A DNA stretch of 64,000 nt from NCBI RefSeq assembly GCF_003449015.1, contig NZ_QRGD01000002.1:434001-498000 (forward strand), given 5' to 3'. Below are positions 18,241-52,379 of the stretch, one piece after another. Below the pieces are notes generated by a model. It was not told the DNA's origin. It ran no database searches and saw nothing but the letters and a program-made list of their open reading frames with translations. Origin of the DNA: Aureibaculum luteum. GTDB taxonomy: Bacteria > Bacteroidota > Bacteroidia > Flavobacteriales > Flavobacteriaceae. Numbering within the stretch: position 1 is the first letter of the stretch; every line of letters starts with the position of its first letter. Position numbers and translations under genes: made by a program.

Positions 18241-18307
18241 TGTCATTGCGAGGAGCATAACGTAATTATTTATTGTAGTACTTACATTATAAGTGACGTG
18301 GCAATCC
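18241..18307 (+). repeat. Dispersed repeat, family B, copy 1
   Basis: Begins TGTCATTGCGAGGAGCATAA and ends GTGGCAATCC, with a variable AT-rich core. The ends ATTGC and GCAAT are inverted. Copies 2-5 share the same ends. Confidence 0.75.
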
Positions 18308-18394
18308 TATTAATGTCCTATCCCCAGCCCTTTCCTAAGGAAAAGGAGCATGATTCTCTTTAAATTCAGCAATAACGAAGACCATTGACACATG

Positions 18395-18461
18395 GTCGTT
18401 GCGAGGAGCATAATGGAATTTCCTTCAGTTAGAACTTATAGGTTATGCGAGGTGGCAATCT
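18395..18461 (+). repeat. Dispersed repeat, family B, copy 2
   Basis: GTCGTTGCGAGGAGCATAAT at the start and GCGAGGTGGCAATCT at the end. Its core (GGAATTTCCTTCAGTTAG and onward) is nearly identical to that of copy 3. Confidence 0.75.
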
Positions 18462-18498
18462 GTTTATTGTTCCTTAGAATTAATTTAATAAAAAACAC

Positions 18499-18524
18499 TC
18501 CCCTTAGCCCCTCTCAAGAGGGGA
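18499..18524. repeat. CT-rich palindromic element
   Basis: TCCCCTTAGCCCCTCTCAAG followed by AGGGGA; the inner part CCCCTCT/AGAGGGG pairs. It resembles a palindrome class common between flavobacterial genes. Similar worn copies are near 18330, 49980 and 54805. Confidence 0.55.
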
Positions 18525-18531
18525 ATTCCTT

Positions 18532-18600
18532 TGTTATTGCGAGAAGCAACACTGAATTTCCTTCAATTAGTACTTATAGGTTATGCGAGGTGGCAATTCT
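18532..18600 (+). repeat. Dispersed repeat, family B, copy 3
   Basis: TGTTATTGCGAGAAGCAAC at the start and GCGAGGTGGCAATTCT at the end. It runs nearly into the methyltransferase stop at 18612. Confidence 0.75.
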
Positions 18601-22979: not shown

Positions 22980-24281
22980 ATGAAAGAAACTAAAATTGCA
23001 ATTATTGGTTTAGGATACGTAGGTTTACCTTTGGCTGTTGAATTTGCGAAGAAATACCAAGTAGTAGGGTTTGATATCAATACCAAGAGAATTAATGAAT
23101 TAAAAGGAAATAATGATTTTACCTTAGAAACGTCTTCCGAGGAGTTAGAAGGAGTAAACGTTACTTCCTTAGAAAATTTAAAAGTCTCAAAAACGGGACT
23201 TTGGTTAACAGATGAATTGTCTGACATTGAAATGGCTAATTTTTACGTGGTTACGGTACCTACTCCAGTGGATAAAAGTAACAGACCAGACTTAACACCG
23301 TTATACAAGGCTAGTGAAACAGTAGGTAACGTATTGTCTAAAGATGATGTTGTTGTTTATGAATCAACCGTTTTTCCTGGGGCAACGGAAGATGAATGTA
23401 TTCCAATTTTAGAAAAAGTTTCTGGCTTGGTTTTTAATAAAGACTTTTATGCTGGGTATTCACCAGAAAGAATTAATCCGGGAGATAAATTACATACGGT
23501 TACCAAAATATTAAAAGTTACTTCTGGCTCAACTCCAGAAATAGCCACATATATTGATAATGTTTATAAATCTATCATTGTTGCAGGTACACATTTAGCA
23601 CCATCTATAAAAGTGGCTGAAGCGGCTAAAGTAATCGAGAATTCACAACGTGATGTTAATATTGCATTTGTGAATGAGCTGTCAAAAATATTCCGTTTAA
23701 TGGGAATTGATACGCTAGAAGTATTAGAAGCAGCCGGAACCAAATGGAATTTCTTACCCTTTAGACCGGGCTTAGTTGGTGGACATTGTATAGGTGTAGA
23801 TCCGTATTATTTGGCTCAAAAAGCTATGGAATTAGGGTATAATCCTGAAATTATATTAGCGGGTAGACGCTTAAATGACAGCATGGGACCTTTTGTAGCA
23901 CAAGAGTCTGTAAAAATGATGATTAAAAAGGGAATTCCTATCAAAGAATCTAATGTATTGGTATTAGGAATCACTTTTAAAGAAGACTGTCCTGATATTA
24001 GAAATTCAAGAGCTATTGATATTGTTCGCGAATTTGAGTCATTTGAAGTAAATATTGATGTCTTTGACCCATGGGCTACTGCAGCTGAAGTAAAACATGA
24101 ATATGGTATTGATTTAATTGTCAATGAAAGTGATATTAAGAAAAAATATGATGGTGTAGTAATAGCCGTATCTCATAAGGAATTTAAAGTATTAGACCTT
24201 TCTAAGTATTGTGCAACTGATCATATTGTTTTCGACGTAAAAGCAACGTTACCAAAGGATAAGTCGGATAGTCGTCTATAA
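22980..24281 (+). CDS. tviB: UDP-N-acetylhexosamine 6-dehydrogenase (TviB/WbpO-like nucleotide-sugar dehydrogenase)
   Basis: 433 residues. The NAD-binding motif is GLGYVG (10-15), the central domain reads STVFPGATEDE and YSPERINPGD, and the catalytic cysteine is Cys270 in GGHCIGVDPYY. FKEDCPDIRNSRAIDIV in the C-terminal domain is typical. Over its length it resembles the Vi-antigen enzyme TviB more than UDP-glucose dehydrogenases. It should therefore oxidise UDP-GlcNAc (or GalNAc) to the uronic acid, feeding an acidic sugar into the polymer. Conversion to UDP-GalNAcA by the downstream epimerase is plausible. UDP-ManNAc made by wecB could be an alternative substrate, but the similarity argues for TviB. 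Confidence 0.9.
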   Translation: MKETKIAIIGLGYVGLPLAVEFAKKYQVVGFDINTKRINELKGNNDFTLETSSEELEGVNVTSLENLKVSKTGLWLTDELSDIEMANFYVVTVPTPVDKSNRPDLTPLYKASETVGNVLSKDDVVVYESTVFPGATEDECIPILEKVSGLVFNKDFYAGYSPERINPGDKLHTVTKILKVTSGSTPEIATYIDNVYKSIIVAGTHLAPSIKVAEAAKVIENSQRDVNIAFVNELSKIFRLMGIDTLEVLEAAGTKWNFLPFRPGLVGGHCIGVDPYYLAQKAMELGYNPEIILAGRRLNDSMGPFVAQESVKMMIKKGIPIKESNVLVLGITFKEDCPDIRNSRAIDIVREFESFEVNIDVFDPWATAAEVKHEYGIDLIVNESDIKKKYDGVVIAVSHKEFKVLDLSKYCATDHIVFDVKATLPKDKSDSRL

Positions 24282-24311
24282 ATGTCGATACGAGAGAAAC
24301 AAATTTACAAA

Positions 24312-24420
24312 TGTCATTCAGCCTGTGCTGAACTTGTTTCAGTAAGGGAAGTGTAACGGAGCGAAGAATCCGCTAGATTGGAGTTAAAATTTGACAGATT
24401 CCTCCTACGTCGGAATGACA
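24312..24420 (+). repeat. Palindromic dispersed repeat, family A, copy 1
   Basis: Begins TGTCATTCAGCCTGTGCTGA and ends CGTCGGAATGACA, giving inverted ends TGTCATTC/GAATGACA. GGAGCGAAGAATCC and CAGATTCCTCC inside also pair. Its first 35 bases are identical to 24806-24840. Confidence 0.85.
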
Positions 24421-24448
24421 GGTATGCGTAATATAAAAAACGGTATTT

Positions 24449-24775
24449 ATGAACATCGGTACTAAAGAAATTCACTCATACCATGTATACATAATCACAA
24501 ATAAAAATAAAACAGTTCTGTACATTGGCGTTACAAATCATTTATCAAGACGATTATTTGAACATTCAGAAAATATTAAATTAAATAAAAAATCGTTCGC
24601 CTCAAAATATAATTGTGAATATTTGTTATATTTCGAGAAGTTTACTTGGATTCAAGAAGCAATTGGAAGAGAGAATGAAATAAAAGGTTGGAGTAGGAGT
24701 AAAAAAGAGACATTAATAAAGACAATTAATAAAAATATGGAATTTTTAAATGATTTTTTTTCGTATCAATTGTAA
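24449..24775 (+). CDS. Small stand-alone GIY-YIG nuclease family protein
   Basis: 108 residues, almost entirely one GIY-YIG domain of the UPF0213/YhbQ-like kind. The first motif is HVYIITNKNKTVLYIG (about 12-27), the conserved arginine is in LSRRLFEH, and the late glutamate is in GRENEIKGW. All core catalytic positions seem present. The gene does not fit the surrounding polysaccharide genes. It is bracketed by family-A repeats in the same orientation, 28 bp before its start and 30 bp after its stop. This suggests it moves with, or acts on, these repeats, which is inference only. Confidence 0.9.
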   Translation: MNIGTKEIHSYHVYIITNKNKTVLYIGVTNHLSRRLFEHSENIKLNKKSFASKYNCEYLLYFEKFTWIQEAIGRENEIKGWSRSKKETLIKTINKNMEFLNDFFSYQL

Positions 24776-24805
24776 TTGTCAATAGGTTTAGATCATAATA
24801 GCATC

Positions 24806-24965
24806 TGTCATTCAGCCTGTGCTGAACTTGTTTCAGTAAGCGAAGTGAACAAATATAGAACTGTCATTCAGAGCGAAGTGAAACGCAGCGAAGAATCTCA
24901 CAATCGGAGCGTTAGATTTTAAACAGATTCCTCGTCGCTCCTTGGGTCGCTCTGTCGGAATGACA
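24806..24965 (+). repeat. Palindromic dispersed repeat, family A, copy 2 (composite)
   Basis: A partial unit (starting at 24806, same first 35 bases as copy 1) is followed by a complete one (24862-24965) with inverted ends TGTCATTC/GAATGACA and long internal pairing (AGAGCGAAG with TCGCTCT, AAGAATCT with AGATTCCT-like arms). Confidence 0.85.
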
Positions 24966-25039
24966 ATTAGTGAGATTCTCGGAACGGGACAGGCTCGATA
25001 ATCAATAAAATATCATTATAAAAAATAGTTATACTAATA

Positions 25040-26098
25040 ATGAAAGAAAATATAAAGGAAAAGGTCCTCGTAACCGGAGCTGCAGGCTTCATAGGCTACC
25101 ATTTATCCAAATTATTGACAAAAAATGGGTATGATGTTGTTGGTATAGATAATATTAATGATTATTACGACCAAAACTTAAAATATGCGAGGCTTGAAGA
25201 TTTAGGCATTGCACGAGATAAAATAGCGGACAACATTCCAGTTAAAGGAGACATTAGTTTTGTGAAGCTCGACTTGAAAGATAAAGAAAACTTGATGCAA
25301 CTTTTTAAAGAAGAAAAGTTTGATTATGTGGTTAATTTAGCAGCTCAGGCAGGGGTACGGTATTCTATTGAAAATCCTCAAACGTATATTGACAATAACA
25401 TTACTGGTTTTTTAAACATCTTAGAAGGCTGTAGAAACTATCCAGTAAAGCATTTAGTATATGCATCATCAAGTTCTGTTTACGGTCTAAGTGAAGAAAT
25501 ACCATTTAAGGAAGATAGCCATACGGATCATCCAATTGCAATCTATGCGGCAAGTAAAAAAGCTAATGAAATGATGGCACATTCGTATTCCCATTTATTT
25601 GGAATTCCTAGTACTGGTTTACGTTTCTTTACGGTGTATGGCCCGATGGGTAGACCCGATATGGCCTTATATTTGTTTACCAAAGCAATAGTAGAAGACA
25701 AGGAATTTGATGTGTATAATCATGGAAACATGAGTAGAGATTTTACCTATGTTGCTGATATTGTAGAGAGTATAAAAAGGTTACTACCCTTAGCTCCTAT
25801 GGCTAATAATCCTAATTTTGACCCTAAAAAACCCATTCCATCGTCTAGTTCAGCCCCTTATCAACTCTTTAATATAGGTAATAATAGTCCGGTACAATTG
25901 ATGGATTTTGTTAAAGGTGTAGAAAAGGCATTAAACAAAAAGGGTAAGATTAATTTAAAACCGATTCAACCAGGTGATGTACCTAGTACCTATGCTAATG
26001 TTGAAAGTTTATTTGATTACATCGATTTTAAACCATCAACCCCCATTCAAGAAGGTATTGATGCCTTTGTGGCAAAGTATTTGGAAATGAACACGTAA
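25040..26098 (+). CDS. NAD-dependent UDP-uronate 4-epimerase (CapI/LpsL-like)
   Basis: 352-residue extended short-chain dehydrogenase/epimerase. NAD motif GAAGFIG (13-19); NDYYDQNLKYARL near the N-terminus is the hallmark of UDP-glucuronate 4-epimerases. Catalytic SSS in YASSSSVYG and YAASK with Tyr169/Lys173. The C-terminal region reads RDFTYVADIVESIKRL. It lies downstream of the TviB-like dehydrogenase and probably epimerises its product (GlcNAcA to GalNAcA), or UDP-GlcA to UDP-GalA; the pairing makes the first plausible but does not prove it. A terminator-like hairpin follows about 215 bp after the stop. Confidence 0.88.
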   Translation: MKENIKEKVLVTGAAGFIGYHLSKLLTKNGYDVVGIDNINDYYDQNLKYARLEDLGIARDKIADNIPVKGDISFVKLDLKDKENLMQLFKEEKFDYVVNLAAQAGVRYSIENPQTYIDNNITGFLNILEGCRNYPVKHLVYASSSSVYGLSEEIPFKEDSHTDHPIAIYAASKKANEMMAHSYSHLFGIPSTGLRFFTVYGPMGRPDMALYLFTKAIVEDKEFDVYNHGNMSRDFTYVADIVESIKRLLPLAPMANNPNFDPKKPIPSSSSAPYQLFNIGNNSPVQLMDFVKGVEKALNKKGKINLKPIQPGDVPSTYANVESLFDYIDFKPSTPIQEGIDAFVAKYLEMNT

Positions 26099-52220: not shown

Positions 52221-52379
52221 TGTCTTCAGCTTGTGCTGAACTTGTTTCAGTACTAGGAATGCCTTTTCTTCTGTCATTCAGAGCGGAATGCAATGGAGCG
52301 ATGAATCTGTCAAATAGGAGTTAGAATTAAGCAGATGCCTGTCCCTCCCGAACTCTCGGGATGGGAAATTACAATGACA
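52221..52379 (+). repeat. Palindromic dispersed repeat, family A, copy 3 (composite)
   Basis: A first unit starts TGTCTTCAGCTTGTGCTGAA; a second starts TGTCATTCAGAGCGGAATGC at 52272 and ends ACAATGACA. An inner hairpin TCCCGA/TCGGGA is present. Same layout as copy 2 at 24.8 kb but more worn. Confidence 0.75.

Follow-up and report, generated by a model that had tools for sequence, protein, structure and literature searches.

Does a small GIY-YIG nuclease gene that lies between palindromic repeats form one mobile unit with them, and is it the nuclease that moves or processes these repeats? This question is raised by a locus of Aureibaculum luteum in the stretch of 64,000 nucleotides analysed here (the window; contig C12, bases 434001-498000, genome size 5.1 Mb), for which an earlier reading of the bare sequence had suggested that both may be the case.

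The nuclease gene and its protein

The sequence-only reading had placed the gene (Table 1) 28 bp after one repeat and 30 bp before another, with the first 35 bases of the two repeats being identical. Both gaps are exact, as is the identity of 24312-24346 with 24806-24840. A repeat does stand on each side, with the refinement that the left one is a whole pair of hairpins and the right one a partial unit followed by a second whole pair. Since the left repeat is complete and a second complete pair lies on the right, the gene in the window is situated between two whole pairs, unlike in many relatives, where inspection of the flanks revealed the gene directly between both arms of a single pair. In the near congener G115, which lacks the CCTGTGCTGAACTTGTTTCAG insert, this gene is enclosed by two complete pairs as well. 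The left pair has 13 matches, whole or partial and itself included, in its own genome, and a search of positions 24200-25050 against Rfam yielded no match. Judging by sequence, we take the ORFs on either side of the gene to encode a Ugd-type dehydrogenase and an NAD-dependent epimerase. Elsewhere in the window, at 18242-18597, there are three closely spaced copies of a repeat starting GTCATTGCGAGGAGC or similar (families D3 and D5).

Table 1. Position of the nuclease gene and of the repeats of its family in the window
Feature	Position	Strand
Left inverted hairpin pair, REPIN/MITE-like, 109 bp, TGTCATTC...GAATGACA	24312..24420	+
Right arm of left pair, terminal hairpin GATTCCTCCTACGTCGGAATGACA	24397-24420	
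Small GIY-YIG nuclease gene, 108 aa	24449..24775	+
Partial repeat unit, first 35 bases as at the start of the left pair	24806..24847	+
Right inverted hairpin pair, complete, TGTCATTCAGAGCG...GTCGGAATGACA	24862..24965	+
Further member of this repeat family, away from the gene	52221..52313	+

The GIY-YIG domain is the sole Pfam match of the protein (56.7 bits versus a cut-off of 22.6, E 3e-15). Seven residues are invariant in an alignment of 53 homologs (Y25, R35, E63, A71, E75, K79 and K86), with Y25, R35 and E75 being presumably catalytic, as in GIY-YIG enzymes, and the criterion for the superfamily, an above-cut-off domain with conserved Tyr, Arg and Glu, is met. An AlphaFold2 model was obtained with a mean pLDDT of 90.4, and the only Foldseek match below E 0.001 was to the UPF0213 protein 1zg2 (2.5e-4), followed by weaker matches to Slx1 entries (E 0.03-0.16), the UvrC N-domain (0.27) and I-TevI (1.0). 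The UPF0213 proteins (1zg2, 1ywl) are nearest by sequence and fold and share the single-domain architecture, whereas our searches found no repeat link for them. As Slx1 is a branched-DNA nuclease according to the titles of its structure entries, the weak fold match makes recognition of hairpins or cruciforms plausible, but no more than that.

Hairpin repeats around related nuclease genes

The repeat unit is a hairpin of the form GTC-AT-NNN-GA-N-loop-N'-GA-N'N'N'-AT with GTC outward. A search pattern that leaves the stem free (GTCATNNNGANNNNNGANNNATC) gave 13 matches in the genome of the window, 41 in F. pokkalii and 134 in F. anhuiense, compared to 0-1 per genome for the reversed pattern (15 genomes); 101 Flavobacterium genomes contained 0-188 units each (reversed pattern 0-2). 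The stems were observed to covary, as 183 of 191 flank-distinct matches are fully complementary (shuffled mean 47, max 64), and so are 34 of 42 when distinct 23-mers are counted once (shuffled max 15), with the caveat that the loci were partly chosen for holding the repeat and that related copies are counted separately in the 191. Of these 191 matches, 186 have C-G or G-C as the inner pair, and 141 have a GAA loop. Non-coding inverted pairs measure about 70, 76 and 98 bp, and the 38 distinct outward pairs (19 of them 98 bp long) share their ends, all having T before GTCAT and A after ATGAC (mostly TTT and AAA). The stem is identical in both arms of 32 of the 38, although the shares of paired and single units were not counted; in one F. 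anhuiense family with a homologous interior, most pairs carry one stem (TTC, TCC, CCT or TCT) in both arms. No direct repeats of 3-6 bp above those in shuffles were detected at the 38 pairs, and the short target-site duplication that serves as a criterion for DDE insertion sequences is not met. Nearest-neighbour DNA folding did not support a stable fold for a single flavobacterial arm, which folds weakly (three arms, z +0.57 to -0.71), whereas one whole 98-bp pair folds strongly (z -12.78) and a Rhizobiaceae REP folds well (-10.1 kcal/mol, z -4.87).

A scan of genome contigs returned 64 related loci, and among the flanks listed the gene lies directly between two hairpins in many of them, as in L023 (TTTTGTCATTCCGACGAAGGAGGAATCTC - gene - GAGATTCCTCCTTCGTCGGAATGACAA). 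Under a strict rule requiring GTCAT and three bases, followed 5-25 bases later by the complement of these three bases and AT, with GTC outward on both sides and within 250 bp, 29 of the 64 loci qualified without a flank filter. After removal of five loci with short flanks (L058, L060, L061, L073 and L085), outward GTCAT hairpins on both sides within 250 bp were found at 28 of 59 nuclease loci versus 2 of 231 control ORFs of the same loci, some of which adjoin the nuclease gene and may share one of its arms, while random placement averaged 0.94 of 59 and never exceeded 5 in 300 draws. Unit density was 4.24/kb up to 250 bp from the genes and 0.19/kb away from them. In a second sample, consisting of the best 30 loci from a profile search of the 101 Flavobacterium genomes, the strict two-sided rule was met by 13 of 30 loci versus none of 41 controls; the three stem letters agree between the arms in 13/13. 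This sample is mostly separate from the first, yet its independence is incomplete (L197 and L028 are one and the same gene, and the proteins of L193 and L025 lie at zero distance in the nuclease tree), and it counts L200 despite a short flank. A test that makes no use of the motif agreed: inverted similarity of the two flanks exceeded the 99th percentile of controls at 20 of 61 loci versus 2 of 183 controls, leaving out three short-flank loci and controls less than 200 bp from the gene. Flanking of homologs by the palindrome more often than by chance, the check attached to the earlier proposal, is therefore borne out by a wide margin in both samples. That homologs would generally be located without such repeats, which was to refute it, is contradicted insofar as many of them adjoin the repeat. 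Not all do: the strict two-sided rule is failed by roughly half of the loci (31/59 and 17/30), and some failing loci of the first sample have other hairpins by eye, which were not counted. Units of the opposite orientation also occur on both sides of 8 of the 59 loci versus 4 of 231 controls, because the pairs lie in arrays.

The repeats and the nuclease also go together across genomes. A close nuclease (best E 9.6e-32 or better) was identified in 60 of the 101 Flavobacterium genomes and is absent from 41, of which 17 have weaker matches only and 24 none (four of the 24 assigned by elimination). Median unit density was 3.40/Mb with and 0.48/Mb without a close nuclease (Mann-Whitney p 1.2e-6), so that the repeats are not equally common in genomes lacking the nuclease, as a second refutation would have had it, with the reservation that phylogeny is not corrected for. 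Likewise without correction for kinship, the size-adjusted rank correlation over the 101 genomes is 0.32 (p 0.0013), and one-sided p values within three genome-size classes are 0.028, 0.049 and 0.0003. A close nuclease is present in 19/19 of the unit-richest genomes (at least 28 units, a limit set after seeing the data). On the other hand, 7 of 21 genomes with zero units still carry a close nuclease, and 10-27 units are found in five genomes without one of the close type.

When stem type was mapped on a tree of the 38 nucleases whose two arms agree, it changed 7 times, against a minimum of 5 and 19.3 times when shuffled; support is weak at many forks of this tree, and L128 and L108 were labelled manually. 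By eye, the stem at the gene matches the genome-wide repeat stem in G001, G002, G010 and, among the matches listed, G013.

The notion that each nuclease has one matching repeat family was rejected as a general rule owing to a mismatch, again by eye, in G003, G004 and G014, whose genes have GCT stems with no GCT elsewhere among the units listed.

Units with and without the gene

As far as sequence allows a judgement, the 98-bp non-coding pairs of F. anhuiense (G013) and its relatives look like the nuclease element minus its gene. An F. anhuiense nuclease copy (L128, contig C32) is flanked by the hairpins and the subterminal sequences of the 98-bp pair; this clearest gene-bearing 98-bp unit has lost GTC from its left arm. 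Shared interiors were observed more widely in eight gene-bearing units from F. anhuiense and six relatives that were compared to the consensus of 19 98-bp pairs: the right interior matches in seven of them (scores 14-20 versus 9-12 for the best of 300 shuffles), the exception being L220, whose interior does not match the consensus by this test. The left interior outscores every shuffle in four of the eight (L205, L208, L218 and L128); L202 and L215 tie with the best shuffle, and L200 and L220 stay below it.

The spacer between the Ugd and epimerase genes was inspected in six congeners, in a search that took in 17 genomes including that of the window. G115 has the gene and two pairs, and G116 has repeats without the gene; the spacer is nearly absent in G127 and G121, and other genes are located there in G117 and G122. 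The empty-site polymorphism on which the sequence-only reading had also staked its proposal thus exists, with congener spacers holding gene and repeats, repeats only, or neither. Two further pairs of the window's genome are present in G115 and absent from G116, and orthologous Flavobacterium spacers contain pairs with different stems or none. Exact empty-site junctions could not be read at three Flavobacterium and two own-genome sites, where presence or absence is clear but the flanks are too diverged. At one of these two own-genome sites (G000:C46:19906-19982, L260), the 29-base spacer of the pair is exactly reverse-complemented relative to the congener G115 (L261); this pair, or its interior, is flipped in place.

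Known repeat systems and the spread of the hairpins

Which known repeats do these hairpins resemble? As far as the available part of their paper goes, Di Nocera et al. 2013 (PMC3733652) defined CGTC REPs, including neisserial dRS3 and Rickettsia RPE-4/6, reported them from Bacteroidetes, alpha-Proteobacteria, Neisseria and others (S. meliloti and A. lipoferum are named) and described them as apparently without a dedicated transposase; "GIY" does not occur in the text. Nor did titles and abstract openings of the open-licence PMC literature searched, which excludes preprints, describe a link between a GIY-YIG gene and REPs. The units studied here share with CGTC REPs the GTC tag (CGTC/TGTC), AT as first stem pairs, a short stem and loop, inverted pairs and an intergenic location, along with the CCA tail in several alpha-proteobacterial loci of this analysis. 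A short hairpin in which the first stem pairs after the GTC tag are AT, one criterion for CGTC REPs, is present in Flavobacterium, while a stem of 8-9 bp with a loop of 4-5 fits the folded Rhizobiaceae unit (9-bp stem). By contrast, the flavobacterial stem is interrupted by GA/GA steps (5 bp, GA/GA step, 1 bp), with mostly a 3-base loop and then commonly TC rather than CCA.

Related genes were also detected by tblastn in 24 plasmid records, 13 of which were examined for flanks. By eye, CGTC-type REPs stand on one or both sides of the gene in Rhizobium CIAT894 (CCGTCATCCCAGGGCTTGACCCTGGGATCCA - gene - TGGATCCCAGGGTCAAGCCCTGGGATGACGG), both Shinella, Neorhizobium, S. meliloti, Azospirillum, Novosphingobium (whose unit has GTCGCC in place of GTCAT) and N. 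gonorrhoeae. A strict rule with a 6-bp stem is met on both sides by 6 of 13 plasmid loci versus 2 of 17 control ORFs, which is weak by itself; some further loci have repeats on both sides by eye, and 11 of 13 have any unit within 250 bp, a figure without a control. By the same rule there is no unit in Sinorhizobium K101 and Planktothrix and no outward-facing unit in R. tumorigenes and Spirosoma.

According to PMC8049555, REPs and REPINs belong to the common repeats found in bacterial genomes. In the REPIN/RAYT system (REPtron, TnpA-REP), as presented in the accessible parts of PMC3116915 and PMC8266576, a small dedicated enzyme is likewise located between its own hairpin repeats, non-autonomous inverted pairs occur in many copies, and enzyme and repeat types go together. 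RAYTs are described as single-copy in the part of PMC3116915 available, whereas the GIY-YIG gene has more than one copy in some genomes (L022 and L026) and forms three tandem copies of the unit in L037 (63-78% identical over 646 columns, ungapped comparison). RAYTs are the proposed enzymes of the GTAG REP superfamily; of the features that define them, an enzyme gene flanked by its own REP is met and an HUH Y1 tyrosine transposase is not, the domain here being GIY-YIG and the tag GTC instead of GTAG. We read the locus as a REPtron-like unit with a GIY-YIG nuclease replacing the RAYT, cutting and movement being inferred and not demonstrated. A chemistry different from RAYT, as had been proposed, would follow from the GIY-YIG domain and not from any assay. 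Covalent strand-transfer chemistry is not expected of GIY-YIG enzymes, which hydrolyse strands and do not join them, and insertion at new sites would thus need a host step, for which there is no demonstration.

We consider it probable that gene and flanking hairpins are one mobile unit whose nuclease cuts the hairpin ends and moves the pairs. The outward-GTC hairpin would serve as recognition end, and the small, probably structure-recognising nuclease encoded between two such ends might nick or cut them when they are extruded as hairpins or cruciforms, upon which host repair or replication restart could copy the unit elsewhere or leave it with the gene deleted. The short non-coding pairs would then be non-autonomous derivatives moved in trans, as is proposed for REPINs, which are thought to be moved by RAYTs. 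Bracketing in relatives, unit density, shared ends and interiors, covarying stems, agreement of stem type with the nuclease tree, co-occurrence and site polymorphism are shown and support the mobile unit that the sequence-only reading had suggested, while the part of that suggestion in which the nuclease moves or processes the repeats is still an inference, as is the attribution of recognition, cleavage and movement to the GIY-YIG enzyme rather than another. For the as yet unidentified enzyme behind the spread of one large hairpin-repeat family, the small GIY-YIG nuclease is a strong candidate.

Alternatively, the gene could be a free-standing homing endonuclease that cuts in mid-pair and is copied in by gene conversion along the arms, with the REP pairs spreading by other means. 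GIY-YIG is a classical homing domain, the gene seems to interrupt the sequence presumed to be its target, the L128 gene has the two halves of the 98-bp interior around it as if it had inserted into a pair, the G116 spacer has repeats and no gene, and the window's protein has a sub-threshold match to a group I intron endonuclease model (23.3 bits versus a cut-off of 56.05). However, a passive target would not require that stem type follow the nuclease tree or that nuclease and repeat numbers go together, and the spread of the pairs is left unexplained. Moreover, unlike homing endonucleases, a protein of about 100 aa has no room for a separate DNA-binding domain, the target would be a dispersed repeat, and tblastn at E 1e-5 found no relative of the gene in the phage records searched. 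Invasion of pre-existing pairs by the gene is therefore unlikely in our estimation, but it remains open.

We attach still less weight to the possibility that a RAYT or other transposase (RAYTs were not surveyed in these genomes) moves the repeats and that the GIY-YIG gene either travels along as a passenger or serves the host in clean-up by resolving hairpins and cruciforms. The weak Slx1 match would accord with such a role, as would a 2007 survey whose accessible part suggests a possible excision-repair role for small proteins of this kind and lists three small COG2827 genes in Caulobacter, one with an SOS box (PMC1839093). Yet a housekeeping enzyme need not sit between its substrates at many different places, eight loci with GIY-YIG domains fused to UvrC or exonuclease have only 0-1 units in 3.2 kb, and the available part of PMC3733652 reports only few, fortuitous associations of tyrosine and other transposase genes with CGTC repeats. 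That repeats and small genes merely pile up in the same permissive intergenic spaces is scarcely credible, even though they share an intergenic location and hairpins flank some control ORFs as well (2/231, and 2/17 in the cross-phylum set), being already contradicted by the two-sided counts in both samples, by random placement, by the prevailing outward orientation and by the stem letters matching between arms.

Returning to the nuclease-borne unit, we are only slightly more inclined to accept than to doubt its widest form, in which minimal mobile elements over several phyla have a single-domain GIY-YIG nuclease, bracketed by CGTC-type REP hairpins, as the missing enzyme of one of the two REP superfamilies. 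Structure-specific cutting together with host repair would then mobilise both the element itself and swarms of non-coding pairs, and the stem letters would act as a specificity code evolving jointly with the nuclease. A cognate enzyme would make the origin and persistence of CGTC repeats directly testable and assign a role to small genes whose sole annotation is "GIY-YIG nuclease family protein", and the matched stem letters would provide a natural series of nuclease/hairpin pairs for studying structure-specific cutting.

Several other small GIY-YIG genes were encountered. Sister genes (L102-L105, L107, L114, L116 and L003) are flanked by other GTC-tagged hairpins, such as GTCACTTCGAGTAGCGAAGCGTATCGAGAAG, GTCACCTCGAGCGAAGTCGAGAGGC and GTCAGGCTGAGCGGAGTCGAAGCCC, by eye and without controls. 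The small GIY-YIG gene of a Planktothrix plasmid (L223) has a type IIL restriction enzyme on one side and DISARM drmA on the other, with GTCATTCTGAGTGAAACGAAGAATC repeats around it. Another subfamily is located at tRNA genes (L110, L124, L129 at G003:C4:313309-314259, and L006), with tRNA-like 3' sequence on both sides of the gene in L110, L124 and L129; ARAGORN identified one whole tRNA each in L110, L129 and L006 and none in L124. G003 has three GIY-YIG matches about 369 bp apart. Finally, a different small GIY-YIG gene lies on the minus strand at the 5' end of the epimerase gene in G122 (L168), with similar copies of the gene start on either side (positions 2792 and 3149 of the reverse complement), as if, to judge from these copies, the insertion had carried a replacement target end.
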